A DNA stretch of 64,000 nt from the NCBI GenBank assembly GCA_016927905.1, contig JAFGLW010000024.1, forward strand, positions 81,950-145,949. Direction: 5' to 3'. The stretch comes from a candidate division CSSED10-310 bacterium. GTDB taxonomy: Bacteria > CSSED10-310 > JAFGJC01. Under the pieces are notes generated by a model. The model ran no database searches. It was given only the letters and a program-made list of their open reading frames with translations, and was not told where the DNA came from. A program made the translations under genes and the position numbers. This document shows positions 15,899 to 39,264 of this stretch, one piece after another. The first letter of the stretch is position 1; the number at the start of each line of letters is the position of its first letter.

Positions 15899-15972
<74 letters not shown>

Positions 15973-16001: not shown

Positions 16002-16083
16002 GCGAGGATGGCGGAAATGGCAGACGCGCTGGACTTAGGATCCAGTGTCCACGGACGTGGGGGTTCAACTCCCCCTCCTCGCA
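16002..16083 (+). tRNA. tRNA-Leu (anticodon TAG)
   Basis: This is a class II tRNA with acceptor GCGAGGA/TCCTCGC, anticodon stem CTGGA/TCCAG around CTTAGGA, an extended variable arm and a GGGGG/CCCCC T-stem. CCA is not encoded. Confidence 0.96.
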
Positions 16084-16157
16084 GACAAACAAGCCGACCG
16101 CCGGCACATCGATATAACCAGCATGCGGCAGCGTTTTTCGAGTGAGAGGAACATTTC

Positions 16158-20570: not shown

Positions 20571-23531
20571 ATGAACAATAGCTACGCGGAATCAAAAGAC
20601 ATCGCTCGAATCTCCATCCGACTGGACTGGAAAATGGCGCTGTGGGCGTTCTTGTTCCTGTTCATCCTGTTGACCCGGTTTCACCATCTTGGGGATAAAC
20701 CCTTCCATCACGACGAAAGTCTTTATGCCAAGTACATCTGGAATTTTCACGTGGGAATGGGTTACGAATACGATCCCATGCAGCATGGACCTTTCATGTT
20801 CCACATGCAGCAGATTCCCCTGTTTCTTTTTGGCGTCAACAACTACACAATTCGCATCCTCCCGGCGGTCACCGGGATCGCCCTGACGCTCGCTTTTTTT
20901 CTCATGCGTCGAAGACTCGGGGAGGGCGTTGCCCTGATGGCGGGATGGTTGTACGCAATCAATCCCGTGTTCATGTACTTCCAGCGGTTTTTAAGGCACG
21001 ATCCGTTTTTCTCGCTCTTCACCATCTTGATCTTCTTTTTCCTGCTGCTTTGGTTTCAGGACAGGAAACCCTGGCAGGCATACTCCCTGGCCGCTTCCCT
21101 GTGCATCCTGTACTGCATAAAGGAAAACGCGTTTGTCCAATTCCTGATTATTTTTTCCTTCGTCGTGATGAAGGTGTTGACGGATTTCTTCGATAAAAGA
21201 AAGGGAATGCGCGACCGGTTCAAATCGATTCCTGAAAACGCTAATCGCTATCCATACGTGACCAAGTTGTGGATTTTCGTGGCTTTATGCGGCGTTTCAT
21301 TCGTTCTGTACGCTATCGGAAACCAATGGTTGAAAGCCAGCTTCGCGAACTGGGAGAAAACCGTCCAGTACTACTGGTATGCCTGTTTCCTGTTGTATTT
21401 TGTGTTCACCGCATTCATGGTGATGCGGGGTGAACGGGTTCGCAAGAACCAGGTAACCAAACCGATGCTGGGATTTCAGCCGGGATTTTTCACGGACAGC
21501 CATGTTTTCGCTCTGAGTCTTCTGATATTCGTGAGTATTTTCATTTTGCTGTATACGACGTTTTTCACCAACCTGAAGGGATTCTGGGGCGGTATTTACA
21601 AATGGTACACCTACTGGCTCCATCAGCATTCCATCGCCCGGATCCGTGGACCCTTCCACTATTATCACCACCAGATGTTGATCTATGCCTTCATCCCGTT
21701 CTCCATCGTCCTGATCGGACTGATCAGCCGGACCATGCAGAAAACCAGATACATCATTTCCAGCGCCTATATCATCCTGTTTATCCTGGCGCTGATCGTA
21801 GCCAAAAAATCGTCTTCCCCCTGGCCGTTCACAAACCAGGATCTTTTCACAAACGAGCATCTCGTTTTCGCGGCATTTATTTTCGTGGCGGGCGCATATT
21901 GCGTGATGACATACCTGAAGGAACGGGCTTATACCAAGGCGTTTCTGAGCTGGTGGACCCTGCTGGCATATCTGATTTATTCATATCTCCAGGAGAAAGT
22001 TCCATGGTTGACCATGCACATCATCACCCCCATGATTCTGCTCGCGGCCATTTTCTTAGTTGAAATCTTCACCGACAAGAGCCTTAAATGGCAGCGGCAG
22101 GCCATGATTGGTCTGTTTGCCTTAATGGTGATGTATTCCATGCACACCGCGTTCATGCTCTGCTGGTACCATGAAGCGGATCCAACCGAACAGATGGTCT
22201 ACGTGCAAACCACCTACGACGTGCCCAGAATACTGGATGAAATCGATGAAATGGCTTTCTGGACCAACGAGGGAACCGATCTTCCGCTGGCGATCGACGG
22301 GCATGCAACTTGGCCGTTCTACTGGTATTTGAGAGACTGGAAGAACATAATCTATAACAAACAGGTTGATCCCAACCGGCATGTCATGGTGATCTGCAAC
22401 TGGGAAGACCGGCATGCACTCGCCGAGAAACTCGGGGACAATTTCATTCCCAGACGATACGGACTGAGAGCCTGGTATCTGCCCAAACGCTCCGACCTGA
22501 CCTCGGGCGATGCCCTTCGGAACGCATGGCGCTGGGTTCTGCTGCGGGAACGATTCAAACCCAGCCTGTACGGGACACAGGACATCTGCATGTTAGTCCG
22601 AAAGGATCTGGCCAAATTTTCCAAAGGCATCGATATCGGGGAAGCTCCGGTAAAAGTCAAAAAGCAGGCGCCGCCCCCCAAAGCTGCCGCGATGGTGGAC
22701 AACATCCTGGAAATCGGGCGGTTTGGTTCCGGGAAAGGCCAGTTCAACGAACCCAAGGGAATCACTGTTGACAAGGAAGGTAACATCTACGTGGCCGACA
22801 GTAAAAATGCCCGGATCCAGAAGTTTTCTCCCGGCGGGGAGGTTCTGACCACATGGGGCGTGTATGGCGAGGGGGAAGGGCAGTTCAACAGCCCAACCGG
22901 TGTCACCGCAGATTCCAGGGGATTCATCTATGTCGCGGATACCTGGAATCACCGGATACAGAAATTCGATTCGGATGGGAAATTCATCTTCGCATTCGGC
23001 GACTCCTCCATTTTCTGGGCTCCCAAAGACCTGAAAGTCGATGATGAGGGGTTCATCTATGTGGTGAATACCGGATTCCACCGCATTCAGAAATTTACCC
23101 GGAACGGCCAGCAGATCTGGTCGGTCGGAACCAAAGGAATCGATTCCACCCAGTTCACCGAACCGGTCGGGATCGACGTCGATTCTGTGGGCCGCCTTTA
23201 CATCGCCGACACGGGTAATCAGCGGGTGTCCGTTTACGACAAGGACGGTCACCTGTTGAAATCATTCCCGGTCTATGGGTGGGAATACTTCTACACCGAA
23301 CCGTTTGTCACCGTCGATACTCAAAACGACCTGATCTATCTGACCGACTCCCGGAACAACAAAATACAGGTGTTCGATATGAACGGCGAATTCAAGAATT
23401 TCTGGGGCAAGGAGGGTCTCGCGGGCGGTCAGTTCAAATTGCCCATCGGGATCACTTGTCACAATGGAAAATTATATGTGTCGGAAGTGGGAAACCATCG
23501 GGTGCAGGTGTTCGAGAGCGGAATTCAATAA
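20571..23531 (+). CDS. Agl23-like membrane glycosyltransferase fused to C-terminal NHL propeller
   Basis: The start is ATG 20571 after GAGGAG; the track ORF extends 351 residues upstream only as an antisense shadow of folD/larB. The 986-residue protein has 11-13 membrane segments in residues 15-560 and matches the TIGR03663/Agl23-like GT-C family. The acidic catalytic-type motif is FHHDESLYAKY, followed by YEYDPMQHGPF. After a soluble stretch and a Pro/Lys linker near 690, residues about 705-985 form a six-bladed NHL propeller with blades such as GKGQFNEPKGITVD and IYVADTWNHRIQKF. Blade 3 (FWAPKDLKVD) and blade 5 (YGWEYFYTEPFVTVD) deviate in the way shared with three other proteins here. It probably transfers a sugar from a lipid carrier on the outer membrane face. 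The substrate is unknown. Confidence 0.88.
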   Translation: MNNSYAESKDIARISIRLDWKMALWAFLFLFILLTRFHHLGDKPFHHDESLYAKYIWNFHVGMGYEYDPMQHGPFMFHMQQIPLFLFGVNNYTIRILPAVTGIALTLAFFLMRRRLGEGVALMAGWLYAINPVFMYFQRFLRHDPFFSLFTILIFFFLLLWFQDRKPWQAYSLAASLCILYCIKENAFVQFLIIFSFVVMKVLTDFFDKRKGMRDRFKSIPENANRYPYVTKLWIFVALCGVSFVLYAIGNQWLKASFANWEKTVQYYWYACFLLYFVFTAFMVMRGERVRKNQVTKPMLGFQPGFFTDSHVFALSLLIFVSIFILLYTTFFTNLKGFWGGIYKWYTYWLHQHSIARIRGPFHYYHHQMLIYAFIPFSIVLIGLISRTMQKTRYIISSAYIILFILALIVAKKSSSPWPFTNQDLFTNEHLVFAAFIFVAGAYCVMTYLKERAYTKAFLSWWTLLAYLIYSYLQEKVPWLTMHIITPMILLAAIFLVEIFTDKSLKWQRQAMIGLFALMVMYSMHTAFMLCWYHEADPTEQMVYVQTTYDVPRILDEIDEMAFWTNEGTDLPLAIDGHATWPFYWYLRDWKNIIYNKQVDPNRHVMVICNWEDRHALAEKLGDNFIPRRYGLRAWYLPKRSDLTSGDALRNAWRWVLLRERFKPSLYGTQDICMLVRKDLAKFSKGIDIGEAPVKVKKQAPPPKAAAMVDNILEIGRFGSGKGQFNEPKGITVDKEGNIYVADSKNARIQKFSPGGEVLTTWGVYGEGEGQFNSPTGVTADSRGFIYVADTWNHRIQKFDSDGKFIFAFGDSSIFWAPKDLKVDDEGFIYVVNTGFHRIQKFTRNGQQIWSVGTKGIDSTQFTEPVGIDVDSVGRLYIADTGNQRVSVYDKDGHLLKSFPVYGWEYFYTEPFVTVDTQNDLIYLTDSRNNKIQVFDMNGEFKNFWGKEGLAGGQFKLPIGITCHNGKLYVSEVGNHRVQVFESGIQ

Positions 23532-23608: not shown

Positions 23609-25960
23609 ATGATTGAAATCATGCTTTGGTGGATGGTCATCACCGTCACCGGCCTGATCGCGCTCCCACTGGCTCGAAGATTCTTCAGGAGTTATCCGGA
23701 CCAAGGCTACATCCTGTCAAAAGCTTTCGGATTATGTCTTCTGAGCTTCGTCAACTGGATCCTGTCCAGCCTGCATATCCTGAAGTTCAGCCCGCTGTCC
23801 GTCCTGGTATCCATGAGTCTGATTCTCCTTGGTTCCTGGTTTCTCAAGAAAGAATCTCTTGCCGATATCGGCCAATTCTTTACCGGGCAGAAACGGGTCG
23901 TTTGGGTCTCGGAAATCGTATTTCTGGCGGCATTTGCCCTGTTTGCCTTTATCCGCATGTGCAATCCGGATATCGCGTCGACGGAAAAAATGCCGGATTT
24001 CGCCTTTTTGACCGGCATCATCAACAGCGGCTATTTCCCGCCCAAGGATCCCTGGTTTCTGGGGGAAACAATCAACTACTTCTATTACGGGCATTATCAG
24101 ATCGCCCTGTTGACTAAATTGACCGGTATCGCTCCCCAGATCGGTTTCAACCTGGGAATCGCCTTCCTTTTCGCCATTACCCTGACTACCGCATTCGGCG
24201 TCACATACGGCTTGACCCGAAACTTGAAATACGGATTTCTGGGAGGTCTTTTTGTGGCATTCATCGGCAACCTGGACGGGATCAATCAGCTGCTGTCGAA
24301 AGTAGTGCTGGGACCCGAAAAATTTTACCCGTTCACCTGGTTCAACTGGTGGATGAGTTCCCGGGTGATTGTCCGGGAAGGAGTGGATATCACCATCAAC
24401 GAATTCCCTTTCTGGAGTTATATCCTGGGCGATCTTCACGCCCATGTAAACGTAGTGCCGTTTTCTCTTTTGGTACTGGGCATCATCCTGGAATTGATGC
24501 GGGGCGGCGGCGACGGTCTGGGAGTCATCGGGCGGGGAAAGGAGTTTTATTTCCGGATCATCATCGCGGCCGTTGCTCTGGGTGCGATTCCGGCGGCCAA
24601 CACCTGGGATATGCCAACATATTTCGGATTGATGGCCGCGGCTTTGATCTTTGAGCGTCAATTCACCCGAAAATTTCCGGTAACATCGTATTTGGGATTC
24701 CTGCTCACTCCGTTCCGGGAACTTATCGACCGATGGAACAACCCGCCGGAACTAACCAAAGATCGAAACGGTTCCTTGTTCTGGAGCCGTTGGGGACTGA
24801 CATTGACCGCCGTTTTTCTGCTTATCGGAATAGCGCTTCTTCTGTATTGTCCCTATTATCAAAATTTCCAGCCCAAGGGCACCCAGGGTATCAGACTGGT
24901 CGATCCCATCCAGCGGACCCTGTGGGACGATTTCCTCACCATCTACGGATTTTTCTTTTTCTGCGTACTGTCGCTGATCCTGTACCTGTTGAAAGAACGC
25001 ATAATGAAGGTTTCACCCCGCCTGATGCCGCTTTTGGTTGGATCCCTCATCACCGGGTACATCATAACCTTCCTTGTTTTTCAGACGTTCATGGTGGCTT
25101 TCTGCATAATCGTTCTGGGATTGCTTTTGGCACTCCCGTTTTCCCAGGACGATCCCGAAAAACTGGAAAAATTCTTCGCTCTCTCACTGTTTGCTACTGC
25201 TCTGCTGATTCTTCTGGGATGCGAATTCTTTTATATCAAGGATGCTTACGGGAAAACACTGGAACGGCAAAATACCATTTTCAAATTCTATTATCAGGCA
25301 TGGGTGTTCTGCGGAATTTCATCGGCCTATGCGGTTTACCGATTCAGCGAGATTGTTAAAGAACGCTGGAAATTGACCTGGGACATGGTGTACAGGGTCC
25401 TTTTCGTTGCCACGCTGGCGTTTCCGGTTTTCGGGACAACAGTCAAATGTAATCATTTCGCAGCTTTGAAGGATAATACACCCTACGCCAAGGCGACGCT
25501 TGACGGCATATGGTATATGTCCTGGCGTTATAAGGGAGATTACCAGACCATTCAATATCTTCGAAAACACGCTAAACCCGAGGAAACCGTCCTGGAAGCT
25601 ACCGGACCGGCGTTTTCGCATTATGGGCGGATATCCGCATCCACAGGCATGTACACGCTGATCGGATGGGCGAATCATGAGAATATCTGGCGGGACGGGT
25701 CCTGGCAAATGGTCAATAAGAGGGTCAACGATGTCCGAACAATCTATTCAACTTCCGATATCAACCTGGCCGGACAGCTCCTGAATGAATACGGCATCGA
25801 TTACGTTTACGTGGGGATGCTGGAACGAGAGCAGTATCCCAATGCCGATTTCGACAAGTTCGCCTCCTTCATGACGAAGCTTCTCGATGTGGAAGATTCC
25901 GATGGGAAAATGACATATCTGTACCGTGCAAACCCGCAATCATCCACGCGGGAGGATTAA
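23609..25960 (+). CDS. DUF2298 ('YYY') multi-pass membrane protein
   Basis: This 783-residue protein has about 16 hydrophobic segments and matches the DUF2298/TIGR03662 family, known as YYY proteins from the motif NYFYYGHY seen here near residue 157. Upstream of it, NPDIASTEKMPDFAFL and YFPPKDPWFLG are also family signatures. ILGDLHAHVNVVPFSLL lies about 120 residues later, and the conserved ERQNTIFKFYYQAW is near residue 550. Family members are predicted GT-C-like enzymes with unknown substrates. The gene lies between the Agl23-like protein and a protein that fuses a PMT domain to a second YYY domain, and starts 78 bases after the former. Only 3 bases separate its stop from the next start. 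Confidence 0.9.
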   Translation: MIEIMLWWMVITVTGLIALPLARRFFRSYPDQGYILSKAFGLCLLSFVNWILSSLHILKFSPLSVLVSMSLILLGSWFLKKESLADIGQFFTGQKRVVWVSEIVFLAAFALFAFIRMCNPDIASTEKMPDFAFLTGIINSGYFPPKDPWFLGETINYFYYGHYQIALLTKLTGIAPQIGFNLGIAFLFAITLTTAFGVTYGLTRNLKYGFLGGLFVAFIGNLDGINQLLSKVVLGPEKFYPFTWFNWWMSSRVIVREGVDITINEFPFWSYILGDLHAHVNVVPFSLLVLGIILELMRGGGDGLGVIGRGKEFYFRIIIAAVALGAIPAANTWDMPTYFGLMAAALIFERQFTRKFPVTSYLGFLLTPFRELIDRWNNPPELTKDRNGSLFWSRWGLTLTAVFLLIGIALLLYCPYYQNFQPKGTQGIRLVDPIQRTLWDDFLTIYGFFFFCVLSLILYLLKERIMKVSPRLMPLLVGSLITGYIITFLVFQTFMVAFCIIVLGLLLALPFSQDDPEKLEKFFALSLFATALLILLGCEFFYIKDAYGKTLERQNTIFKFYYQAWVFCGISSAYAVYRFSEIVKERWKLTWDMVYRVLFVATLAFPVFGTTVKCNHFAALKDNTPYAKATLDGIWYMSWRYKGDYQTIQYLRKHAKPEETVLEATGPAFSHYGRISASTGMYTLIGWANHENIWRDGSWQMVNKRVNDVRTIYSTSDINLAGQLLNEYGIDYVYVGMLEREQYPNADFDKFASFMTKLLDVEDSDGKMTYLYRANPQSSTRED

Positions 25961-25963
25961 TCC

Positions 25964-28900
25964 ATGGAGTCTGACGTGCTGCCGGAAATACCACGGAAAA
26001 AAACAAACCGGAACTGGCTTCTTTTTCTCATCCTGATCGCCGGAACAACCTTTCGATTTTACGGAATCCGGTGGGGCATGCCAAGTTTTTTCCATCCGGA
26101 CGAACGGCAGATCATGTTCAAAGTCAACGATATATCCTGGAACGATCTTAATCCCCATTTCTTTGCCTATGGATCATTACCCATCTATGTGCTGAAAGGA
26201 ACCGTCACCGGCCTGGACCGCGTCAACCGGTTTGTTGTGGACGCAGCCAGGAAAATGGAACTGGACGCGAAGAAGGTCTCCCGGGTGAGGGAATGGTTTC
26301 CGCCAATGAATCATTTTCGGGGGCAGACCCTGACCGGGCGGGCCTTGTCCGCAATCGTATCAATCTGGACGATCGTTGTTCTTTTTTATCTGGGCAGGCT
26401 GATGTACCAGAAAAAAATCGCGCTGATTGCCGCAGCCCTGTTTTCGTTCAGCGTGTTGTCGATTCAGCAGTCTCATTTCTATGTCGTGGACGGTCCGCAG
26501 ACATTTCTGGTGGTCTGTGCAATCTATTTCATGGTCCGTATGGCCGTCGGGGACCGGGCAAGGGATTATTATTATTCTGGATTATTTATCGGTCTGGCGA
26601 TGTCCACAAAATTCAGCAGCCTGCCCATTTACATCGCGTATGCTTTCGCACACTTTCTGGCTTTGGTTCACGGGAACCGGAAAGGATTCACCCATTGGCT
26701 TCATCTTATCGGCGGCGCTCTCCTGTCGGTCGCGGTCATGACAGCCGGGATGCCTTACTGGATTCTGGATCACGAGAAATGGTGGCGGGACATACAGGAA
26801 CAATCGCGAATGGTCCGGGGAACGGCCCGGCTACCGTATACCATCCAATATGAAAATACTGCACCGTTCTGGTATCTGATTAAGAACATGGCCATTTGGT
26901 CTCTGGGTTTACCGTTCGGGATGGCGGCTTTCGCCGGTTTCGCCGTGGCCATACGCAGGTTTTTCGTTCAGACAAAAGATCTTGGCAATCAGGTCCTGCT
27001 TGCCTATGTGGTACCCATATTCATCGTCAACAGCCTGTTTCAGGTCAAGTTCCTCCGATATACACTGCCTTTGCTGCCGTTTTTTGCCCTGTTCGCCGCC
27101 AAAATGCTGTTCGATCTTCAGAAACGACACCGGATGCGCACACCGGCGAAGATACTCACCATCGTCGTACTGACCGGGACACTCATCTGGGCAATCGCAT
27201 ATACCACGGTATACCGGTATCCAAATACCCGGATCGAAGCTTCGAGCTGGGTTTATCAAAACATACCCTCCGGCGCACACATTCTTCTGGAAAGCAACTG
27301 GGACGACGCGCTCCCCGTGGGAACCCCCGATGGTAATCCCAGCGTATACACAACCAAAAAACTGGAGATTTACAGGGAACCGGAAAACGAGCGCAAGGCC
27401 GGGGAGATGGCGGAAATGCTGGAATGGGGGGATGTAATCATTCTGCCGTCCAAACGGCACTATGGGTCGGTTCTGAGGATTCCCGAACGGTTCCCGGTTT
27501 CGGGGAATTTTTACCGATCCCTGTTTGCTGAACGGCTGGGTTACCGGTATGTCAGGTGTTTCACTTCGCCGCCCCGACTGGGAAGGCTGAAATTCGAGGA
27601 CGACCTGGCGGACGAGAGTTTCCGGGTGTACGACCATCCCAAAGTGGCGATATTCCAGAAGGAAACCGCTCTGACCCGGGACCAGATCCTGCCGTATCTT
27701 CTGAATCCGCCTCCTGAAATCGCGGAAATAACTTACGAGGATATTCTCAGGGCTGTTCCTCCGGATGCAGTCGGCTCCAGAATTTCCTTCCCGGTTATCC
27801 GATGGCTGATCATCCTGGAAATCCTGGGTATCATGGTGTTTCCGACCGCTTTCCTGATTTTCCACCGGTTCAATCACCGGGGATATCCACTGAACAAAAC
27901 AATCGGCCTGATCACGGCGGGATATATCTGCTGGCTGATCCCCAGTCTGAAATGGGTGCCGTTCACCCGGACATTTCTGTTTCTGGTGATCGTTCTTTTC
28001 CTGGCGGCGAATTGCATGCTCTATATGCGGCACCGGCAGGCGATTCATCATTTCGTCAAGCAATATTGGTGGTCGATTGCAGGTTATGAGCTGCTTTTTG
28101 CGGCGGTGTTCGGGCTGTTTGTTTTTTTGAAAAGTTACAATCCCGATATATTCTGGAGCGAAAGTTCGATGGATTTCGGTTTCGTCAATTCCATCCTCAG
28201 ATCAGATTATTTTCCTCCGCATGATCCCTGGATAGAAGGCGAACCGATCAATTACTACTATTACGGGCATTATCTGGCCGCTTTCATGACGCGTCTGGCG
28301 GGAATCGAATCCAGCTACGGATACAACCTGTTCTTCGCCACAATCCCCGCCCTGGTGGCGCTGGCGGTAGCCTCCATACTCATCAGCCTGACCCGGCGCT
28401 TGTGGGCGGGTGTCCTGGGCGTCCTGTTCACCATAGTAATCGGCAATCTGGACGGCGTGGCTCAGATGGCCCAGATATGGAGCCGGATTCCCAAAACATC
28501 GGGCCTGTTCCCGGCTGCCGGGATATTCCGGGATTTTGTGGGCAGTTTCCTGGTTCTGGGTCGCTCGGAAGTGCATTTCAGGTTCTTCAGATCCGCCCAC
28601 GAGTTGATCCGGCCGACAGTTCATGAATTTCCATATTGGAGTTACAATTTCATGGACCTTCACGCCCACACAATCGCCACATTAATATCGTCTCTCGTCC
28701 TGGTATTCCACCTGGTGCTGTTCCGCAACCGGAAGAAGGGATTCGGTATTTTCGGCACCGGCATCACCCGGTACCTGACTCTGGGTGTCCTGTCCATCGC
28801 CCTGGGCGCTCTGATCCCCACCAACAGCTGGGATTTTCCCACACATTGCCTGGTCATATTCCTGATATTGAATTTCATGCCGCTCGAAAAACCGGCCGGT

Positions 28901-31294
28901 TCGAAAAGGACGGCAGAACCCGGCGGCGTCAAAGCGTATTCTGCGCCGGAACCGCTCTTTATCCCCGATTCGGAACCGATATCGTTCCCAGAGGATATCC
29001 CGGATGAAACCGGGACAACGAAACCATCCGAAACAGAATCCGGATTCAAAACCGGGGAGTATCTGGCGGGAATAGCCGATCGTTCGGCGCGCTTCATCGT
29101 CGATTTGTTGCTGACAGTGCAACATAATCTGATGGCAATGATCGTTCCCCTGCTGACCCTGATCGGTATAAGTCTTTTCCTTTATCTGCCGTACCTGAGT
29201 CATTTTTCACGCAAGGGAATGGGTATCGGATTCGTTCATCAATACAGGCAGACCACCAATTTCGATGGATATTTCACCATGTTCGGGTTTTTCCTGTTCA
29301 TATTCGCCACCCTGCTGGTCAGATGGTGGTACCTGGTGCAGCGACGCAAAGGCCGGGGTGTCCTGTCGATCGGTTTGACCTTCATGATAGTCGTCCTGGG
29401 AAGCGTACTTTTATTCAACATCCTGAAAGCGACCTTTCTGATCGATTATTCGGTACTGATTTTCAATACCGTCATAATGGTGGTTGTCCTGTATCTTTTT
29501 TCCAGAAGCAGGTCGGATGCGGATCAGAAATTCGTTCTCCTGTTCGCATTCATGGCGCTGGCCATTACCGCCGGATGCGAAATTATATACATCAAGGATT
29601 TTTACCAGGGAGGCGATCATCGGCGCTTCAATACCATCTTCAAATTTTACATGCAGGCATGGTTTTTCTTCGCAATCGTGTCCGCCTATCTGGTGACCGA
29701 TCGATTCAAAATAAGGAAACCGGACCCGCTTTTTCGCGGATGGAAATCCATCTCCACTCTGGGAAAATGGGCATGGAATCTGATCTTCATCCTGCTCTTG
29801 TCCGGAGCTTTGATTTTTACATTCCAGGGTCCCCGGGCACGGAAGACCCACGATGAGTATCGGCGAGTGGAACTGCCGCTCACACTGGATGGCCTGGCCT
29901 ACATGAAAAAGGGCGGCTGGGACCAGGAATACCGGGCCATTCACTGGATCAACAAACACATCAGAGGCGCTCCGGTCATCCTGGAAGCATCAGGTCCGGA
30001 TTACGAATACCAATACGGGAGAATTTCCGCCAATACCGGGTTGCCGACGGTACTGGGTTGGTGGAGTCATGTGGATCAACGGGAATACGGCCGGAATACC
30101 GGCCGGATGAAACTGGACGTCGTCGAGATGTACGAGGGCATCGATATCCCCCGGCTGCTGGCGCTTCTTTTGAAATACCACGTGAAATATATCTATGTCG
30201 GGTCAACAGAGAAAAATAAATACACAAACATCGGCCTGGATAAATTCTCCCGGTTGACCGATTACATGACACCCGTATACGCCAATCCGGAAGTCACCAT
30301 TTTCCGGATCAATGATTACGGCCTGAACGTGGATTTCGCATCTGTCGCCAGAGACAGCAATGCATTGTCCGACCTGCAGCAGCGAGTCCTGGAGGAACAG
30401 GAAAAGAAACTCGAACAGGAGAAACGGGAGGAAGAAGCGCGAAGGGAAGCTCTCAAATCGGCAGCTCCGACAAGCATGTTCGTCGGGGGGGAAGGGGAAA
30501 TCCGGGGTCAATTTCGGGAGCCCAGATCGCTGGCGGTGGGTCCGGACGGCATGATCTATGTGGCGGATTTCAGAAATCACCGCATTCAGAAATTCAATCC
30601 CCAGGGTGACTGGCTGAACGCCTGGGGATCCAGCGGAGACGAAACCGGCCAGTTCAAAGATATCTGCGGCGTGGCTGTCGATGCGGATGGTGTCTATGTG
30701 GCGGATACTTTCAACAACCGCATCCAGAAATTCAGTCATGACGGGGAATTCATCAGCCAGTGGAGAGGTGATCAGACATCGTTCTTCTATCCCAGAGGCA
30801 TCGGGGCGGATCAGAAAGGATTCATTTACCTGGCTGATACCGGCAACAACCGGATCATTAAAATGAGCAATGAGGGCAAGCAGATCGCCATATGGGGGAA
30901 ACTGGGCCGCGGTGAAGGCGAATTCGAAAGCCCCATCGGGATTCATGCTTCCGGTGATAAAATATACATAGCCGACACGCGGAATCGGAGGATCCAGGTG
31001 CTGGATTCCAGCGGAGCGTTCATCCTGAGTTGGCCGATCGACGGATGGGAGGGTGAAGTGTTCGTGGAACCATACATTGCGGTTGATATCAACCAAAATG
31101 TCTGGGTTTCAGATCCGACTGCGAACCGCATTCTGATTTTCGACCCGACCGGGAAGAAGCTGGCATCCATATCCAGGGATCATCGGGGTCGCCCGTTCGC
31201 ACGACCCATGGGTCTGGCCCTGGATTCCGAAGGCGGTATTCTCGTGGTCGATACCCACCACCACAGACTGACCCAAACCCCTCCGCTGAAATGA
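25964..31294 (+). CDS. Giant PMT-type GT + DUF2298 + NHL propeller fusion
   Basis: At 1776 residues this is the largest protein in the window. Residues about 15-640 are a PMT_2-like GT-C module with acidic motif FFHPDERQIMFKV. Residues about 650-1440 are a complete YYY/DUF2298 module with NYYYYGHYLAAF near 762 and NFMDLHAHTIATL later. A highly charged coiled-coil linker (EEQEKKLEQEKREEEARRE) at about 1470-1500 leads to a six-bladed NHL propeller to the C-terminus. GGGAGGATTAATCC precedes the ATG. Since PMT and YYY functions are separate in other families, the fusion argues that they work in one pathway. Blade 3 (FFYPRGIGAD) and blade 5 (IDGWEGEVFVEPYIAVD) carry the shared cassette pattern. 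I see no frameshift or duplication scar. Confidence 0.9.
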   Translation: MESDVLPEIPRKKTNRNWLLFLILIAGTTFRFYGIRWGMPSFFHPDERQIMFKVNDISWNDLNPHFFAYGSLPIYVLKGTVTGLDRVNRFVVDAARKMELDAKKVSRVREWFPPMNHFRGQTLTGRALSAIVSIWTIVVLFYLGRLMYQKKIALIAAALFSFSVLSIQQSHFYVVDGPQTFLVVCAIYFMVRMAVGDRARDYYYSGLFIGLAMSTKFSSLPIYIAYAFAHFLALVHGNRKGFTHWLHLIGGALLSVAVMTAGMPYWILDHEKWWRDIQEQSRMVRGTARLPYTIQYENTAPFWYLIKNMAIWSLGLPFGMAAFAGFAVAIRRFFVQTKDLGNQVLLAYVVPIFIVNSLFQVKFLRYTLPLLPFFALFAAKMLFDLQKRHRMRTPAKILTIVVLTGTLIWAIAYTTVYRYPNTRIEASSWVYQNIPSGAHILLESNWDDALPVGTPDGNPSVYTTKKLEIYREPENERKAGEMAEMLEWGDVIILPSKRHYGSVLRIPERFPVSGNFYRSLFAERLGYRYVRCFTSPPRLGRLKFEDDLADESFRVYDHPKVAIFQKETALTRDQILPYLLNPPPEIAEITYEDILRAVPPDAVGSRISFPVIRWLIILEILGIMVFPTAFLIFHRFNHRGYPLNKTIGLITAGYICWLIPSLKWVPFTRTFLFLVIVLFLAANCMLYMRHRQAIHHFVKQYWWSIAGYELLFAAVFGLFVFLKSYNPDIFWSESSMDFGFVNSILRSDYFPPHDPWIEGEPINYYYYGHYLAAFMTRLAGIESSYGYNLFFATIPALVALAVASILISLTRRLWAGVLGVLFTIVIGNLDGVAQMAQIWSRIPKTSGLFPAAGIFRDFVGSFLVLGRSEVHFRFFRSAHELIRPTVHEFPYWSYNFMDLHAHTIATLISSLVLVFHLVLFRNRKKGFGIFGTGITRYLTLGVLSIALGALIPTNSWDFPTHCLVIFLILNFMPLEKPAGSKRTAEPGGVKAYSAPEPLFIPDSEPISFPEDIPDETGTTKPSETESGFKTGEYLAGIADRSARFIVDLLLTVQHNLMAMIVPLLTLIGISLFLYLPYLSHFSRKGMGIGFVHQYRQTTNFDGYFTMFGFFLFIFATLLVRWWYLVQRRKGRGVLSIGLTFMIVVLGSVLLFNILKATFLIDYSVLIFNTVIMVVVLYLFSRSRSDADQKFVLLFAFMALAITAGCEIIYIKDFYQGGDHRRFNTIFKFYMQAWFFFAIVSAYLVTDRFKIRKPDPLFRGWKSISTLGKWAWNLIFILLLSGALIFTFQGPRARKTHDEYRRVELPLTLDGLAYMKKGGWDQEYRAIHWINKHIRGAPVILEASGPDYEYQYGRISANTGLPTVLGWWSHVDQREYGRNTGRMKLDVVEMYEGIDIPRLLALLLKYHVKYIYVGSTEKNKYTNIGLDKFSRLTDYMTPVYANPEVTIFRINDYGLNVDFASVARDSNALSDLQQRVLEEQEKKLEQEKREEEARREALKSAAPTSMFVGGEGEIRGQFREPRSLAVGPDGMIYVADFRNHRIQKFNPQGDWLNAWGSSGDETGQFKDICGVAVDADGVYVADTFNNRIQKFSHDGEFISQWRGDQTSFFYPRGIGADQKGFIYLADTGNNRIIKMSNEGKQIAIWGKLGRGEGEFESPIGIHASGDKIYIADTRNRRIQVLDSSGAFILSWPIDGWEGEVFVEPYIAVDINQNVWVSDPTANRILIFDPTGKKLASISRDHRGRPFARPMGLALDSEGGILVVDTHHHRLTQTPPLK

Positions 31295-32022: not shown

Positions 32023-33750
32023 TCAATCCAGCCGCTGTAGCGGCCGGCAAATGCAGATCGTATTCAAGTTGAACCGCGTGTCCCATACGACGCAATCACC
32101 CAGCTTCAGAAGATCCTGGGGCATGGGAATATGGGAATCATGCGCAACCAGAAAACCACCGGGATCCCGGATTTCATCCGTTGAGTTGACCACGTGAACC
32201 GAGCTGTAATCATAAAGGAACCGGTATGCATTTTTTGATTCGAGGAATTTTCTGTCCGTCATCAAATACACCAGGATGCCGGTGTGTTCTTTCTGGATCT
32301 TGTCTATCTCCCGTGCCAGGAGAAGGTTCAGATCATAGAAATACCGCTGCACACCGGCATCACTCAGGGCAGTGTTGAAAAACCGGTCGGCATTTACCGG
32401 GACGATGACACCCATTAAACCGGTCAGCACGACCGCTTTCAGAAAACGGCGGAACCGGGTGTTTTCGGGAAGGCTGTCGGCAGGATAACCGATCAGGAGA
32501 AGAACCATCGGGATGGCCGGAATCAGCCGGTACCGTTGCGGATTCAGAACCAGTAATCCGGACAGGAGAACGATACCGGTTATCCCGGTTACCAGGAACA
32601 GTTTCATGAAATTCTTGCGCAGGGTGACCAGGCAGTAAATGAAAGCAATCCCACTCAGAATCCCCGTGATCGGATCGATGATTCCCAGGCTGCCGGGAAG
32701 AATCTCCCTGCAATCCATTCCGCTGATAAAGAAAAAACGAACGGTAATCCAGACCTTCCTCATCTGTAGGGTGATCAGGTCCGAGAAACCGTCGAACCGC
32801 AGCGCATTGTGATGCCTGAGAATTCCTTCGGTGAATGGAAGGATAGATATTCTTCCGGGCCAGACAAGTGTCGGGAGAACCACCGTAAAAGGCATTACCA
32901 GGGCCAGAAAGAAATGCGACAGACGGGTGAATCGTGCGGGCCGGGATTTCGGTGATCGGGTATCTTCCGGATTGGTCGATCTCATGCAAAGACAGGTTGC
33001 GGCCAGACAGACCATGATCAGACCGCCGGTTAACTTGTAGCTGAAATATTCGGTCAGCAGCAGACCGTCGGCCAGACCGGCTGAGATCAATGTCCCGGTA
33101 TCGGGGTACCGAAGAAATAGAGCGAAGGCTGCAATGGCGACCACCAGTGTTGTCACCGGGGACATGGTTTCCATGGCGATCCGGGATGATCCGGCAAGAT
33201 ATGCCTGGGTTGCGAACAGCATGGACACGAAAAAGACGGTGTAAACGGATCGGAATAGCTGGGTTGCCGCCATAAAGAAAAACAGCACACCGGTCAAGCT
33301 GTACAGCGTGAACGCCCATCGCATTCCGCGCAGATCCATGCCGAAAAGCCGGAAACCGGTTTCAGCCACCAGGTTGACCAGCGGGAAATATATATCCAGT
33401 GTTTCCGTCTCAATCGAGTTCAATGCGTAGGAGGCGGTCTGATATTCTTCCACCATCTGCCCGTCATCCGGCGGGAACACGCTGAATCGATAGGTTCTGA
33501 AGACTATTCCCGCCGCCAGCACCATACCGAATACCAACAGAAAAACAGTATTGATTTGGGGAATTCCCGTCCGGTTGTTCGCCAGGCACCTGAAAACCAG
33601 CAGCACCATTGCCAGTATTGATGCCGACAAAACCAAAAGAAACGCTTCCCGAAACGTGATCCGGTTGAAATATCTCAGAAGGCAGGCTGTCCCGGTCAGT
33701 CCCGTTAATCCGTAAAAAACGGTCCAGGGAATCAGTTGAGACTTTTCCAT
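32023..33750 (-). CDS. Multi-pass GT-C/PMT-like membrane glycosyltransferase
   Basis: This 575-residue protein has about 11 hydrophobic helices and a C-terminal soluble region of about 100 residues. The expected acidic motif of lipid-sugar-dependent GT-C enzymes is RFSVFPPDDGQMVEEYQTA, near residue 90. AGSSRIAMETMSP is a common PMT_2 segment (usually xxSRxxxxE). Donor and acceptor are unknown. It is the last gene of a three-gene minus-strand operon after the GT2 synthase and the NHL-PMT fusion; 17 bases separate it from the latter. It has no NHL domain, unlike its neighbour. Confidence 0.8.
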   Translation of the reverse strand: MEKSQLIPWTVFYGLTGLTGTACLLRYFNRITFREAFLLVLSASILAMVLLVFRCLANNRTGIPQINTVFLLVFGMVLAAGIVFRTYRFSVFPPDDGQMVEEYQTASYALNSIETETLDIYFPLVNLVAETGFRLFGMDLRGMRWAFTLYSLTGVLFFFMAATQLFRSVYTVFFVSMLFATQAYLAGSSRIAMETMSPVTTLVVAIAAFALFLRYPDTGTLISAGLADGLLLTEYFSYKLTGGLIMVCLAATCLCMRSTNPEDTRSPKSRPARFTRLSHFFLALVMPFTVVLPTLVWPGRISILPFTEGILRHHNALRFDGFSDLITLQMRKVWITVRFFFISGMDCREILPGSLGIIDPITGILSGIAFIYCLVTLRKNFMKLFLVTGITGIVLLSGLLVLNPQRYRLIPAIPMVLLLIGYPADSLPENTRFRRFLKAVVLTGLMGVIVPVNADRFFNTALSDAGVQRYFYDLNLLLAREIDKIQKEHTGILVYLMTDRKFLESKNAYRFLYDYSSVHVVNSTDEIRDPGGFLVAHDSHIPMPQDLLKLGDCVVWDTRFNLNTICICRPLQRLD

Positions 33751-33767: not shown

Positions 33768-36701
33768 TCAACTCTCTGGTTCCGGCACGGTTGCGGCTGC
33801 CAGGAGTTCTTTTGGAACGATGTAGCTGTAAAAAATTACATCGTTGGCGTATGCCTTGTCCCGATACTCAGTGTAAATCCCGCCGGGATAAAATTCCTTG
33901 ACCCGCCCGAATAGCGGTTCATTCCGGATATCTTTTTCGAACAGGAAGGCCACCCCCTTGTCAGGCGGATGGCGGGCATTCAGAACGCGTTCCAGGTTGG
34001 CATGCAGCCGTTCCTTGGGTACGACATCGATCACTTCCCCGTCGGTTATGGTGAAAACATCCCCGGGTACCCGGTAACAGATGAACTTGGGAGTATCGAT
34101 GAAATGACCCTGCGATATATAAAGAGTATTTTTCGCAGCAAGCTCAAGACCCTGGTATCCCAGTAGGGTATGTTTTCTGGCATATCCGAACTGGGCGTAG
34201 TAGTCGGAGCCCAGTTTATAAAAATAATATTTGAATTCTGTTACACCGATCCAAGCGGTCAATGCGATGACAGCGGCCGCGGCACCCTTTTTCCCGACGG
34301 GGCCTTTCCAGTATCTGACAAGACTCAGAATGCCGGCTGCTGTAAACGCGCTGACCGGAATGGGAGTCATGATCGTCCGGGCTGCATCCGGTTCGGAAAG
34401 GATTCCGGGTAGAAGGCCGAAGGCGAACAGGGCCATGAGCAGAAACGGTCCGCGCTGCAATGCGTGCCGGACCATAATCAGCAGACCGATGAGCATCATC
34501 AGACCGAGCGGGTAAGTGACGATCGGCCATTCGTTGTTGAAGAAGTTACCGACATGGGCCTGATGGTGAAACATCAGCAGGTTTTCCCGGATATTCGTCC
34601 AGAGCGGGGTCAGCGATCCGGCCGTTCTGATTTTATTTCCGATGAACAGAAAATCGGATCGACCCATGAACGATGCTAAATTTCCCCGGTTTTCCAGGGC
34701 ATACCGGGCCAGAGGAGAAAAAGCGGCGGCACCTGCAGTCAGGTAAAAAATCAATCCCCACCAGTTCCGACGCATGAACCGTTTTTCCCTGATCCAGGTG
34801 TGAATGCCGACCAAAATCATCATAACGGGGATTCCCCGGAAAGCGAAATATGTATGCAAACCGAGTCCGATGAAAAATCCGGAAAGAATATAGTATGAAA
34901 GCCGTTTCCACCATCCGGAGGCATCCACTGCTTTGAAGAAAAGCCAGATCGTCAGTGCAAGGCACAAGGGGGCCAGGATGGCACGGTAGCCGGTCCTGGA
35001 AAACACGATATTCCAGGCCATGGCGGAGTAAATGAAAGCGGCCACGAACGCAAACCTGGTCCCGAACAGCTTCCGGAAAAGAAAGAACAATGCGATCACG
35101 GCGAGAATACCGGCGGTGATGCAGGGCAGGTACAATGACGCCTTGTCCACGCCGAACCATTTAAAGGACAGAGCGATGAGATAGAAATAGAAAGTGCATT
35201 TCCCCCAGGCCTCAGGCGTGAACGGCGTATAGGGTTCACCGTCCAGAATCCGCAGAGCGTACATTCCATTCCAGGCTGCATCGTTGTTGATGCCCCAGGG
35301 GATGTCATCCAGTCGGTAAATTCTGAGCAATACCGTCAGTACTGTCAGGATAAAAAGCAGTCCCCATGAATACGATCGACGCAGTTCCGGTCGATCCTGG
35401 AAAGTGGTCAGTCGGACGGATTTGGGTAATTCCTGGATCCAGGCGAAGGCCAGCCCGGCGGCGATCAGCCAGAATCCCTGTCTGATTCTGCCGTCGGAAA
35501 GCGCATTGACAGCGGTGATGACGCAGATCACGAAGCAGATATACAGGGTTGCCAAAAGCAGCCTTTGCCGCCTCAGAACCTGCAGCGCTCTGTCCCAGTT
35601 GCTTTCCGGCATGATCCGAACAACCGGTGTTACCGGAACCGGCCCTTTTTTCCGCAGGATGCGCTGAACAATCCAGACAACGACGATCAGGGCGGCTGTC
35701 AGGTCCAGAAGGATGCGCAGAATGGAGATCAACTCGGAATGGATATCCGGTTTGCCCGCAGTCGGGGATTGAAGTGACGAAGGTGGTGTGTATTTGACGA
35801 TCCGGTTGTTCTGGGAATCGCTTATATAGATCAGTCCGGCCCGGTCGACAGCGATACCGGTGGGATGGGACAGTTGTTCCGGACCGCTGCCGGATTCGCC
35901 GAACCGGCTGAAAAGTGTTCCGTCTTGATTGAACACGACGACGCAGTCATCATGCGGAACGGTACAGTAAATCCTGTGATCGGGTCCCACAGCCAGATAG
36001 GCTTCGTTGAATTTTCCATTGTCCCAGTCCGGAACGGGGATCACGGATAGAGTCTGTCCGGCGGGATTCAATATTCTGATTCGATGGTTTCCGGTATCCG
36101 CCACAACCAGGTTACCGTCCGGTGCCGTGGCAAGTCCCAGCGGATCACGCATCTGATCCAGGGCATCTCCCTTGCCACCCCAGGTGGCGAGATGTTTTCC
36201 ATCCCGTCTGAATACCTCGATCTTATGCAGGCTGGTATTGGCTACATACAACCGGTTCTGTCTGTCGACGGTCAAACCCCGGGGTGCATAGAAATCGGAT
36301 TGTTCCGTCCAGTTGGGATTCCAGTCTGAATCCGGTGGTTTGACCTGGATCCGATGATTCCATGTATCGGCCACATACAGAACACCGAGTGGATCCATGA
36401 CGGCTTGTGTCGGATCGTTGAACTGACCCGGTTCAGAACCTTGAGCGCCCCACTGCCGGATGAAGGCACCATTGGTCTCCAGCAGCTGGATCCGGTAGTT
36501 TCGGAAATCCGCTACCAGAAGGTGATCATCCGGAGTCAAGGTTAAGCCACGTGGTTCAATGAATTCTCCGGGCCCGGCACCCCGGCTGCCGATCTGCTGG
36601 AGCTGCCGGTTGGCGACTTTGGGAGCGGGGACTTCGCCGCACGATTCCAGGCTCAGGGCGGTCAGAATTATCGCGGCGGTTTTTAAACTCATTTGCAGCA
36701 T
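33768..36701 (-). CDS. N-terminal NHL propeller fused to PMT-type membrane glycosyltransferase
   Basis: I prefer ATG at 36701; the track start at 36725 is a TTG inside the GT2 gene. A short hydrophobic signal (TAAIILTALSLESCGE) could be a secretion signal or imperfect lipobox. Residues about 31-305 are a six-bladed NHL propeller, with EPRGLTLTPDDHLLVADFRN as blade 1, FYAPRGLTVD as blade 3 and VPDWDNGKFNEAYLAVG as blade 5. Membrane helices begin near residue 325, and a PMT_2 domain follows with motif DDIPWGINNDAAWNG near 470. The domain order is the reverse of the other three fusions, yet the propeller would again lie outside the cytoplasm. The C-terminal 200 residues are soluble. It is flanked by the GT2 and GT-C genes of the same operon. 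Confidence 0.87.
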   Translation of the reverse strand: MLQMSLKTAAIILTALSLESCGEVPAPKVANRQLQQIGSRGAGPGEFIEPRGLTLTPDDHLLVADFRNYRIQLLETNGAFIRQWGAQGSEPGQFNDPTQAVMDPLGVLYVADTWNHRIQVKPPDSDWNPNWTEQSDFYAPRGLTVDRQNRLYVANTSLHKIEVFRRDGKHLATWGGKGDALDQMRDPLGLATAPDGNLVVADTGNHRIRILNPAGQTLSVIPVPDWDNGKFNEAYLAVGPDHRIYCTVPHDDCVVVFNQDGTLFSRFGESGSGPEQLSHPTGIAVDRAGLIYISDSQNNRIVKYTPPSSLQSPTAGKPDIHSELISILRILLDLTAALIVVVWIVQRILRKKGPVPVTPVVRIMPESNWDRALQVLRRQRLLLATLYICFVICVITAVNALSDGRIRQGFWLIAAGLAFAWIQELPKSVRLTTFQDRPELRRSYSWGLLFILTVLTVLLRIYRLDDIPWGINNDAAWNGMYALRILDGEPYTPFTPEAWGKCTFYFYLIALSFKWFGVDKASLYLPCITAGILAVIALFFLFRKLFGTRFAFVAAFIYSAMAWNIVFSRTGYRAILAPLCLALTIWLFFKAVDASGWWKRLSYYILSGFFIGLGLHTYFAFRGIPVMMILVGIHTWIREKRFMRRNWWGLIFYLTAGAAAFSPLARYALENRGNLASFMGRSDFLFIGNKIRTAGSLTPLWTNIRENLLMFHHQAHVGNFFNNEWPIVTYPLGLMMLIGLLIMVRHALQRGPFLLMALFAFGLLPGILSEPDAARTIMTPIPVSAFTAAGILSLVRYWKGPVGKKGAAAAVIALTAWIGVTEFKYYFYKLGSDYYAQFGYARKHTLLGYQGLELAAKNTLYISQGHFIDTPKFICYRVPGDVFTITDGEVIDVVPKERLHANLERVLNARHPPDKGVAFLFEKDIRNEPLFGRVKEFYPGGIYTEYRDKAYANDVIFYSYIVPKELLAAATVPEPES

Positions 36702-36711
36702 GCCGATCTCA

Positions 36712-37656
36712 TCAATGATCTTCAAACCGGTCGATATTATCCAGGATTTCTTCGTTCAATCTGCGGTTGACTGCGATCAGATCGGCGATGACGCCGATCA
36801 GAACAAGGAAAAAACCGGTCAGAATGCACACCGCGGAAACAACCACCGATTGAACCTTGCCGGATGGATTCGGCCAGCTGCTCAGGTAATAGTAAATGAA
36901 TCTGAAGAACAAAACAGCTCCAAGACCCAGAAAGAAATATCCACTCCGGGCGAACAGCTTGACCGGGCTGTACAATGCCCAGATCCGGATCATGGTGGCG
37001 GTCTGCCGGCGGATGTAATACCAGTTGCTTCGAAATAACCGGCTTTTCCTGGCAGGCGGGTTGATCTGCACCGGAACCGATACGATCCGAAAACCACTCT
37101 GGCTTGCCTGAATCAGAGTTTCGACCGTGTAGGTGAATTCCGAAAACACCCGAAGCCGTCTGGCTGCATGATAGGAGTAGGCTCTGAAACCGGATGTAAC
37201 ATCCGGGATGTTCAATCCGGTCAGGAACCGGACCATGCGGCTGCCCGTTTTCTGGAGCAGCTTTTTTGTCGGGGAAAAGTGGGGAATGGCGTCGATCGGC
37301 CGGCTCCCGACAACAAGATCAGCCCTGTTGTGCAAAACAGGCCCGATAAGGTCGGCGATACAGGCGGCGTCATATTGATTGTCGGCGTCTGTATTCACCA
37401 CGATATCGGCATTTGAACGAACCGCGTATTTCAGGCCGGCTGAGAATGCTTTTGCCAGACCCTGGTGAACAGGCAGCTCAAGAACATGGTGCACATTCAA
37501 CGATCGGGCGATATCCGCAGTGCCGTCCGTGGATCCGTCATCGATGACCAGCAGTTCGATGGAATCAACGCCTTCGATGGAATCGGGAAGCGCTCGGATG
37601 GTTTCGGGAAGCGTTTCGGCTTCATTGAAACACGGGATTTGAATGATCAGCTTCAT
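36712..37656 (-). CDS. GT2 polyprenyl-phosphate sugar synthase-like enzyme with two TM helices
   Basis: The start is taken at MKLIIQIPCFNEAETL (37656); the extra N-terminal residues of the track ORF look spurious. The catalytic GT-A domain shows VIDDGSTDGTADIA and the metal-binding VVNTDADNQYDA. Acceptor-loop residues are in TSGFRAYSYHAAR. Two C-terminal hydrophobic helices (FFLGLGAVLFFRFIYYYL and the segment near ILTGFFLVLIGVIADLI) resemble GtrB and DPM-type synthases, which load a hexose onto undecaprenyl or dolichyl phosphate. It would supply the donor used by the adjacent GT-C enzymes. First gene of its operon. Confidence 0.88.
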   Translation of the reverse strand: MKLIIQIPCFNEAETLPETIRALPDSIEGVDSIELLVIDDGSTDGTADIARSLNVHHVLELPVHQGLAKAFSAGLKYAVRSNADIVVNTDADNQYDAACIADLIGPVLHNRADLVVGSRPIDAIPHFSPTKKLLQKTGSRMVRFLTGLNIPDVTSGFRAYSYHAARRLRVFSEFTYTVETLIQASQSGFRIVSVPVQINPPARKSRLFRSNWYYIRRQTATMIRIWALYSPVKLFARSGYFFLGLGAVLFFRFIYYYLSSWPNPSGKVQSVVVSAVCILTGFFLVLIGVIADLIAVNRRLNEEILDNIDRFEDH

Positions 37657-37732
37657 CAACAGCATATTAAAAATGAAACAATCCATTAAAGCAAGTTCCG
37701 ATAACCGGGATATCCCCCAGATCGAAAACCGT

Positions 37733-37818: not shown

Positions 37819-39264
37819 ATGCCAAAGAAGCCGTCACGTCTGGCATTGCAACATATCATCCGACTCAGGATGTCGGCTTTGTATATCGCCATTCTGTTCA
37901 TTTTGGGATGTGGATTATCGCCTTCAAATGAAACCGGAACACTCCCGGCAAACCAATCCGCCCGGAACAGGTCGTCTGCAGGGCAGCCTGTGAATCTGGT
38001 GATTTTCACTCTGGATACCACCCGCGCCGATCATCTGGGATCGGGCGGTTACGAACGTATCCTGACACCGAATCTGGACCGGTTGGCCCGCGGGGGAATA
38101 CAATATATCAACGCTTATGCCCAGGCTCCCCGCACGGTGGAATCCCATGCTTCCATATTTACCGGAATTTATCCGTTCATTCATCAGGCAGCGAACGCCT
38201 CGGGAAGAGGTAAATTCCCGATGAGCGATCGGTTCGAGACCCTTGCTGAAATCATGCGGGAAAACGGGTACCAGACTGCGGCATTCACAACCAGTGTCAT
38301 GGTCCGGGCGCGGGACAGCGGCTTGGAGCAGGGATTTGAGACCTATTCGGATTATGATCAGGGGGAATTGAAGGCCGACCGGAACAACCAGCGGTTTTTC
38401 AGGTGGTTCGAGCAAAAAGCCGTGCAGCCGTTCTTTGTGTGGATCCATTATTATGATCCCCATATCCCGTATGCAGCTCCCGCGCCGTTCGACTCGTTGT
38501 ATGAGCCGGTTACCGGTCATCACACCTATAAAAAGATCGTTCGCAAACAGGGTTTGACGAATCTGGAAAATTACACGGTCGGTGAAGGTATCAGCCGGTA
38601 TGATGAAGAAATCACCTTCATGGATCATCATTTCGGGAAGATAATTGAGTTCCTGAACCGGAAAGGACTGCTTGATTCAACCGTTCTCGTTACCATTGCG
38701 GATCATGGTGAAAGCCTTTCCGAACACAACTCGTTCTTCAGCCACGGATACGATATTTTCGAACCCGCGGTTCGAATACCCTGCATGATTCTGGATCCCG
38801 GTTCGGATCGGGGGGGCATGATTGTCAATGCTCTGGTCGAAAGCGTGGATGTGTTTCCGACGATCATGAATCGGTTCGGATTGCGTCATTCTAATCCCAT
38901 TCAAGGAAGGAATCTCACCGGTTATTTCGATTCGGATACGGCGGTTTCCAGAGACAGGGTTTTCAGTCAGAGAAATGCGGATTCACCCAGGATTCTGCAG
39001 TTCGGAGTGCGGGATCGGCGATGGACCTATATAACCGGCAAGGATACACCCCGCATGGCTTATGTGTTTGACAGAGATATCGATCCGGGGGAGATCCGGA
39101 ACCGGGGGACCCATCCTCCCGCTGATTTCGATCGGGATCTATTTCATGAATTCCTTATGGATCAGCTGGGTGCGAAGGACGAATATCCGGCTGCAACTCC
39201 CATCAGCCTTCCTCTGGATTCCAGACTGGCGGAACAGCTGGAAGTACTGGGATACATGCACTGA
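37819..39264 (+). CDS. Sulfatase-fold lipoprotein, likely phospho/sulfo-transferase or hydrolase
   Basis: The 481-residue protein has a lipobox-like LFILGC near residue 31 and an alkaline-phosphatase-superfamily domain. Metal ligands are seen in FTLDTTRADHLGSGGY and ADHGESLSEHN, and the His in FFSHGYDIFEPAVRIP. Where sulfatases have CxPSR for formylglycine, this one reads TVESHASIFTG, so Thr replaces Cys. Thr nucleophiles occur in LtaS- and EptA-type phosphoglycol transferases of the same fold. Therefore it should not be called a sulfatase without testing. GGAAGGA precedes the ATG. It stands alone on the + strand between two minus-strand glycan operons. Confidence 0.8.
   Translation: MPKKPSRLALQHIIRLRMSALYIAILFILGCGLSPSNETGTLPANQSARNRSSAGQPVNLVIFTLDTTRADHLGSGGYERILTPNLDRLARGGIQYINAYAQAPRTVESHASIFTGIYPFIHQAANASGRGKFPMSDRFETLAEIMRENGYQTAAFTTSVMVRARDSGLEQGFETYSDYDQGELKADRNNQRFFRWFEQKAVQPFFVWIHYYDPHIPYAAPAPFDSLYEPVTGHHTYKKIVRKQGLTNLENYTVGEGISRYDEEITFMDHHFGKIIEFLNRKGLLDSTVLVTIADHGESLSEHNSFFSHGYDIFEPAVRIPCMILDPGSDRGGMIVNALVESVDVFPTIMNRFGLRHSNPIQGRNLTGYFDSDTAVSRDRVFSQRNADSPRILQFGVRDRRWTYITGKDTPRMAYVFDRDIDPGEIRNRGTHPPADFDRDLFHEFLMDQLGAKDEYPAATPISLPLDSRLAEQLEVLGYMH

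Follow-up and report, generated by a model that had tools for sequence, protein, structure and literature searches.

A conserved PMT-YYY-NHL fusion protein of candidate division CSSED10-310 and the predicted GT-C fold of its YYY (DUF2298) module

An open reading frame of a candidate division CSSED10-310 bacterium raises the question of whether a PMT-type glycosyltransferase and a YYY (DUF2298) protein are truly joined in one chain and, if so, what this fusion tells about the YYY family. The frame (25964-31294, plus strand) lies in the window, by which we mean the whole stretch of 64,000 nucleotides that was analysed; it starts with ATG and runs over 1776 codons with zero internal stops. An earlier note on this DNA had described a PMT-like module, a complete YYY module, a charged linker and an NHL propeller in this single 1776-residue frame, and all of them were found by Pfam and NCBIfam. 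The N-terminal part scored 55.7 bits against PMT_2 (Pfam cut-off 26.1) and 28.3 bits against PMT (cut-off 22.7), the match being confined to the first 260 residues. Residues 610-1449 matched the YYY family TIGR03662 of NCBIfam with 475.2 bits over model positions 4-726 of 727, and residues 652-1236 matched DUF2298 with 310.5 bits (Pfam cut-off 27.8). The YYYxG signature is present as YYYYG, the neighbouring stand-alone YYY protein having Y-F-Y-Y-G at this place. Between YYY and NHL, D, E, K and R make up 51% of a 35-residue stretch of the linker, and the C-terminus carries five NHL stretches, the best of them at residues 1517-1544 (Pfam). No MIR domain was found among the Pfam matches at E <= 1. 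The PMT module gave nothing at E <= 1 against TIGR03663 (Agl23; cut-off 126.25 bits), and the same model reached only 21-29 bits on two related fusions listed in the search of the bacterium's own phylum. The gene is laid out as follows:

25964..31294, plus strand: PMT-YYY-NHL fusion gene, an open frame of 1776 aa, with an architecture common to relatives
25964..27718, plus strand: PMT-like module of predicted GT-C fold, about aa 1-585 (membrane core and outer domain); PMT_2 and PMT above cut-off; the model of a relative (L051) matches Pmt, STT3, AglB and ArnT at Z 26-31
27791..30310, plus strand: YYY (TIGR03662/DUF2298) module, aa 610-1449; 475 bits against a cut-off of 300.25; fold predicted via homology to the stand-alone YYY model
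28253..28267, plus strand: YYYYG motif, aa 764-768, the family signature
30347..30463, plus strand: linker rich in charge, probably a helix, about aa 1462-1500; charged residues at 51% within 35 aa
30470..31291, plus strand: NHL beta-propeller, predicted on the outer face; five NHL stretches, 109 bits

The DNA was taken from a draft assembly of 31 contigs with an estimated completeness of 86.5%, so that two genes artificially joined by a missed stop or a frameshift had to be considered. YYY was present in all eight CSSED10-310 genomes examined, with long frames of 1777, 1918, 1954, 1983 and 2001 aa from five families and more fragments at contig ends. Alignment of these long frames gave a common PMT-YYY-NHL order, their PMT modules being 34-65% identical. 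A PMT-module scan over 84,980 species genomes yielded 80 loci; frames with both modules numbered 57, a count that includes later-fetched loci and duplicate fetches of the same gene. Fusions were seen in at least six phyla, namely Chloroflexota, Acidobacteriota, Myxococcota (records deposited as Deltaproteobacteria), KSB3/UASB270, Auribacterota and CSSED10-310. Among the matches listed for 101 Chloroflexota genomes drawn, both profiles hit one and the same frame of 1350-2800 aa in at least 45 of the 67 that bear YYY. NHL tails also occur among scanned Auribacterota and Acidobacteriota fusions, and PMT-YYY-YYY frames were found in three Chloroflexota; the one scanned (L115, 3666-11225, minus strand) also has TPRs and is a PMT-YYY-YYY-TPR protein of 2520 aa, the PMT module of which was missed by Pfam and scored 257 bits with the A1 profile. 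Searching a plasmid collection returned NHL matches only. Since the frame is conserved with an identical layout across independent genomes of CSSED10-310 and of other phyla, an assembly artefact is rejected as vanishingly improbable: the PMT-YYY fusion is real, conserved and old. Looking for other PMT-DUF2298 fusions, as the earlier note had proposed, uncovered a widespread architecture, and in place of the missed stop or frameshift that it had envisaged, a continuous PMT-YYY(-NHL) frame was found in phylum relatives and in dozens of genomes elsewhere.

Directly upstream, the earlier note had placed a stand-alone YYY protein and, before it, an Agl23-like enzyme with an NHL domain, and both identities were borne out by their scores:

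20571..23531, plus strand: Agl23 (TIGR03663)-NHL protein; 258.7 bits, cut-off 126.25; six NHL stretches
23609..25960, plus strand: stand-alone YYY protein, 783 aa; TIGR03662 546 bits; predicted GT-C fold in the AlphaFold model

The Agl23-NHL frame opens at 19518, its likely start being the ATG at 20571, and a gap of 3 bp separates the stop of the stand-alone YYY gene from the start of the fusion. Further upstream lie genes for trigger factor, ClpP and EngB. Downstream of the fusion are found a methyltransferase, an NHL-PMT_2 gene, several GT2 and GT4 enzymes, more PMT_2 genes and a Wzx-like flippase. This neighbourhood is of the surface-glycan type, which speaks for the reading proposed below. 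Two of its genes are:

33768..36725, minus strand: NHL-PMT_2 protein, convergent neighbour in the glycan locus; Pfam domains
36712..37686, minus strand: GT2 glycosyltransferase of polyprenyl-phosphate-sugar synthase type (possible donor maker); Glycos_transf_2

The best NCBIfam models for the GT2 enzyme were AglJ and PpgS, both under their own cut-offs. Other features of the window were recorded in passing. In the NHL-PMT_2 protein the N-terminal NHL precedes PMT_2, the reverse of the order in Agl23-NHL and PMT-YYY-NHL. A gene at 42372-45395 (minus strand) combines a sulfatase/phosphotransferase-type domain with a C-terminal NHL that shares 38% identity with the fusion NHL, and a second sulfatase-type gene lies at 37819-39264 (plus strand). 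The NHL domains of the fusion and of Agl23 in the same operon are 40% identical; a recent common origin of these two was considered and set aside as uninformative, their identity being only 40% and the sulfatase NHL nearly as close. The gene at 32023-33750 (minus strand) encodes a 575-aa multi-helix membrane protein without family match, in which the stretch RTYRFSVFPPDDGQ resembles a GT-C first outer loop. Five clustered tRNA genes (Pro, Arg, His, Arg, Leu; 15589-16084, plus strand) lie upstream of trigger factor, and the gene at 52730-55243 (minus strand) encodes a serine/threonine protein kinase that carries a long array of TPRs.

As TIGR03663 is silent on the fusion, the link to Agl23 comes from neighbourhood and co-occurrence and not from the fusion itself. 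Of 101 Chloroflexota genomes, 67 contain YYY, and exactly these 67 contain Agl23. Among 119 Acidobacteriota genomes, 17 have Agl23 and 7 have YYY; all seven YYY-bearing genomes have both, adjoining on one contig, and the dependence is one-sided in that Agl23 occurs without YYY. Fisher tests gave 1e-27 for Chloroflexota and 3e-7 for Acidobacteriota, with genomes treated as independent and kinship ignored. Two of 14 control genomes, those of Haloferax volcanii and Methanosarcina acetivorans, contain YYY, and Agl23 is also in both. Co-occurrence of the two families, raised in the earlier note, is almost perfect, and the genes are often adjacent; the exception is two YYY-bearing Patescibacteria genomes tested (L076 and L099), in which no Agl23 scored over the cut-off. 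The TIGRFAM notes for TIGR03663 are said to state this co-occurrence already. Membership of Agl23 and YYY in a common pathway, which rests on co-occurrence and neighbourhood, is plausible.

Whether the fusion informs on the stand-alone YYY protein depends on how the two YYY types are related. In a quickly built, unrooted tree of 94 YYY domains, without bootstraps, a branch of 99% SH-aLRT support separated the 48 fused domains, without exception, from the 46 stand-alone ones. Fused and stand-alone YYYs are distinct paralogous groups, and their complete split in the tree points to an old fusion with its own paralogue. For this reason the fusion alone does not reveal the role of stand-alone YYY: it ties the fused YYY type to the PMT family, and stand-alone YYY is tied only via the neighbourhood. 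In the tree of PMT modules, unfused genes of Ktedonobacteria are nested among the fused ones, which indicates that the YYY half was lost there, and Patescibacteria PMTs branch outside the fused group. Simple fission into split PMT and YYY genes was considered for Ktedonobacteria and rejected, as the YYY next to PMT there belongs to the stand-alone group. The retention of PMT without a fused YYY in Ktedonobacteria suggests that PMT can do without the YYY half in some lineages. These cases, together with the Patescibacteria that also keep a PMT module without fused YYY, could be taken to mean that each module has its own, unrelated substrate and that the joining serves only equal dosage or localisation. 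However, the old fusion has persisted in at least six phyla without loss of either active-site motif, and unfused PMT genes are often still found near YYY and Agl23 genes, which makes unrelated substrates very doubtful. At five Patescibacteria loci (L076, L088, L096, L108 and L114), two adjacent PMT genes of the fusion family are followed by a YYY gene.

The fold of the window fusion was read from the models of two relatives, the stand-alone YYY protein and a compact fusion of Myxococcota (L051, 1169 residues). The YYY sequence had no match among solved structures (PDB) at E <= 1. With 55 sequences as input, AlphaFold modelled the stand-alone YYY of the window at pLDDT 90.8 and pTM 0.93, and the best Foldseek matches of this model were DPY19, AglB and AftA (E 6e-7 to 2e-5). 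In a second look, the best 41 structural matches were all GT-C (Z 8.4-21.0), the next and unrelated one being at 4.5. Counting rows within 1 of Z as tied, STT3 came at 21.0 (7.1 A over 480), ALG12 at 18.8, AglB at 18.6, ArnT at 17.6 and Pmt at 16.4. The outer C-terminal domain of YYY matched the C-terminal globular domain of AglB with Z 10.4 (2.7 A, 115 residues), and three extra N-terminal helices were found beyond the GT-C core. By homology with this model, the YYY module of the fusion would comprise three leading helices, a GT-C core and an outer C-terminal domain. YYY itself is thus predicted to have a GT-C glycosyltransferase fold, nearest to STT3/AglB (Z about 19-21). This suggests a sugar transferase in the YYY half as well, with a fold related to that of the enzyme by which sugar chains are attached to proteins. 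The shared GT-C fold shows no chemistry, and this limits the transferase reading of YYY. In the L051 model (pLDDT 88, pTM 0.64), the PMT module is a second GT-C unit, with Z 30.7 to AglB and 27.9 to Pmt1-Pmt2 (3.5 A over 382), the scores against AglB, Pmt1-Pmt2, Pmt4 and ArnT spanning 26-31; how the two modules are oriented to each other is uncertain at this pTM. As YYY is predicted to be GT-C, the fusion would be a tandem of two glycosyltransferases. The two modules appear to be remotely related, as hhalign of their profiles gave a probability of 91% and E 1.3e-6 over 102 columns.

Candidate active-site residues were located in the outer loops of both modules:

26093..26104, plus strand: HPDE motif, aa 44-47, first outer loop of the PMT module, with the presumed catalytic D/E; kept in 47/47 fusions
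28160..28174, plus strand: E733-S-S-M-D737 in the YYY module, with the presumed acidic residues of EL1, equivalent to E126/D130 of stand-alone YYY
28655..28669, plus strand: D898-L-H-A-H902 in EL2 of the YYY module, presumed to bind metal or phosphate; both H in 94/94 domains

H44, P45, D46 and E47 are each kept in 47/47 fusions and are invariant in A1 and A3. In the numbering of stand-alone YYY, E126, E265, H277, H279, N555 and K559 are invariant across the 94 fused and stand-alone YYYs, and all are kept in the window fusion. Position 130 is D or E in 97-99%, and Y157 and Y159 are 95-100% conserved. The D of the D-x-H-x-H motif (D275) is found in 100% of fused and 78% of stand-alone YYYs, 21% of the latter having C. 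In AfAglB the metal is held by D47, D161 and H163 (PMC8342417). Matched by loop order, E126/D130 in the first and D275-L-H277 in the second outer loop of YYY presumably lie where these residues hold the metal. The resemblance of EL2 D-L-H-A-H to D161-H-H163 of AfAglB (PMC8342417), and the STT3 and AglB scores at the head of the second look (Z 18.6-21.0), C-terminal domain included, would suit an oligosaccharyltransferase-like YYY that moves a whole lipid-linked glycan to protein, the PMT module finishing or starting the glycan. We hold this to be rather improbable, since the translations lack the exact OST motif WWDYG, GW..H standing in its place, and since the scores of ArnT, ALG12, PMT and DPY19 are almost as high (Z 15-19, differences of up to 1 in Z counting as ties).

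Topology was assigned by counting model helices. PMT would start inside, with the HPDE loop and the soluble domain outside; YYY would start outside, the three leading helices returning the chain so that the first catalytic loop is also outside. In the hand-made helix list of stand-alone YYY, one helix in 331-393 was probably missed and the labels after residue 330 are probably shifted by one, and the earlier loops only were used. The content of K and R per residue was 0.23 in inside-assigned loops against 0.10 outside, with both EL1 loops outside. The catalytic cavities, which the earlier note had proposed to compare, are accordingly modelled with both active-site loops on the outer face. The stand-alone YYY should likewise have its N terminus outside, which would explain a direct joining to the outer end of a PMT-like enzyme.

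On this basis we propose, as a moderately probable reading, a two-site membrane glycosyltransferase of the GT-C type. The PMT-like and YYY modules, remotely related GT-C enzymes, would stand head to tail on one chain, and the two catalytic pockets would lie, like the C-terminal NHL propeller, on the outward side of the membrane. Each module would probably draw a sugar or a short glycan from a polyprenyl-phosphate carrier, the polyprenyl-phosphate sugars being products of GT2 enzymes such as those encoded close by, and both would probably load the same surface glycan or glycoprotein, with Agl23, stand-alone YYY and the nearby GT2 carrier-loading enzymes in the same pathway. Here we infer the donor, the acceptor and the action of the modules in turn; that they serve successive steps of one pathway is plausible and putative. 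The earlier note had argued from the fusion that YYY acts with a PMT/Agl23-type enzyme in one reaction series. Old and widespread fusions, co-occurrence and predicted same-side loops speak for this view, but the fused PMT is not Agl23 and fused and stand-alone YYYs are distinct paralogues, so that it stands only in part.

In Haloarcula hispanica, the PMT-like Agl23 was described as a putative hexose-P-Dol flippase, with translocation of M5GN2-PP-Dol in liposomes (PMC11182771). This report implies that GT-C-like pathway members need not all be transferases, and a transport role for YYY stays a fair rival to the two-site glycosyltransferase. The YYY module would then be a GT-C-derived translocase or carrier-lipid presenter that hands lipid-linked sugars to the PMT module at the outer face. 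Such a role fits with the flippase report on its usual partner, with the dependence of YYY distribution on Agl23 and with the three extra helices outside the GT-C core, but we judge it unlikely in view of the invariant acidic and His residues at places in the outer loops that in GT-C enzymes bind metal and the phosphate of the donor, and of the large AglB-like outer C-terminal domain.

YYY/DUF2298, a family without assigned function, occurs in two thirds of the sampled Chloroflexota. Both domain families are already in public libraries. In the open-access literature we found no report on DUF2298 function or YYY activity, and no paper naming TIGR03662, TIGR03663 or PF10060; DUF2298 is mentioned by two papers, by one of them in a gene table only, and neither appears to deal with its role. 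We put forward tentatively, as a possibility with the balance somewhat against it, that YYY is an unrecognised STT3/AglB-like GT-C transferase family and that Agl23, stand-alone YYY and the fusion form an undescribed system of surface-glycan assembly or glycoprotein transfer in at least six bacterial phyla, Agl23 and YYY being also present in archaea. With the predicted GT-C placement, the candidate residues and the tie to Agl23, for which there is genetics in Haloarcula, the role of YYY can be tested in an archaeon that is grown in the laboratory. Structural work would also gain a useful target in the tandem fusion, a single natural chain in which two GT-C sites are predicted to face outward.

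Compared with known families, the YYY module of the fusion is a full, high-scoring member of TIGR03662/PF10060 (DUF2298). A second class, in which two YYY copies and TPRs go together with an additional N-terminal region, is reportedly described in the TIGRFAM text for TIGR03662. The PMT-YYY-YYY-TPR protein of Chloroflexota (L115) fits this class, and by profile match its extra N-terminal region is identified as a putative PMT-type GT-C module; the window fusion differs in having one YYY copy and an NHL propeller. The gene upstream of stand-alone YYY is a member of Agl23/TIGR03663, which co-occurs with YYY, whereas the PMT module of the fusion belongs to another family, with the HPDE motif. That module scores above the Pfam cut-off for protein O-mannosyltransferases (PF02366/PMT_2) and is predicted to share their fold, but unlike the eukaryote-type enzyme the fusion has no Pfam-detected MIR and carries a second predicted GT-C unit. 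STT3, AglB and PglB would be the closest to YYY in fold, including the outer C-terminal domain, with a similar order of EL1 E/D and EL2 D-x-H; YYY differs from them by the lack of the exact WWDYG, by its three extra N-terminal helices and by having no PDB sequence match at E <= 1. ArnT and the mycobacterial AftA, AftD and Emb are, like the predicted fusion, outer-face bacterial GT-C enzymes of similar fold, each a single GT-C unit and not two GT-C modules per chain.
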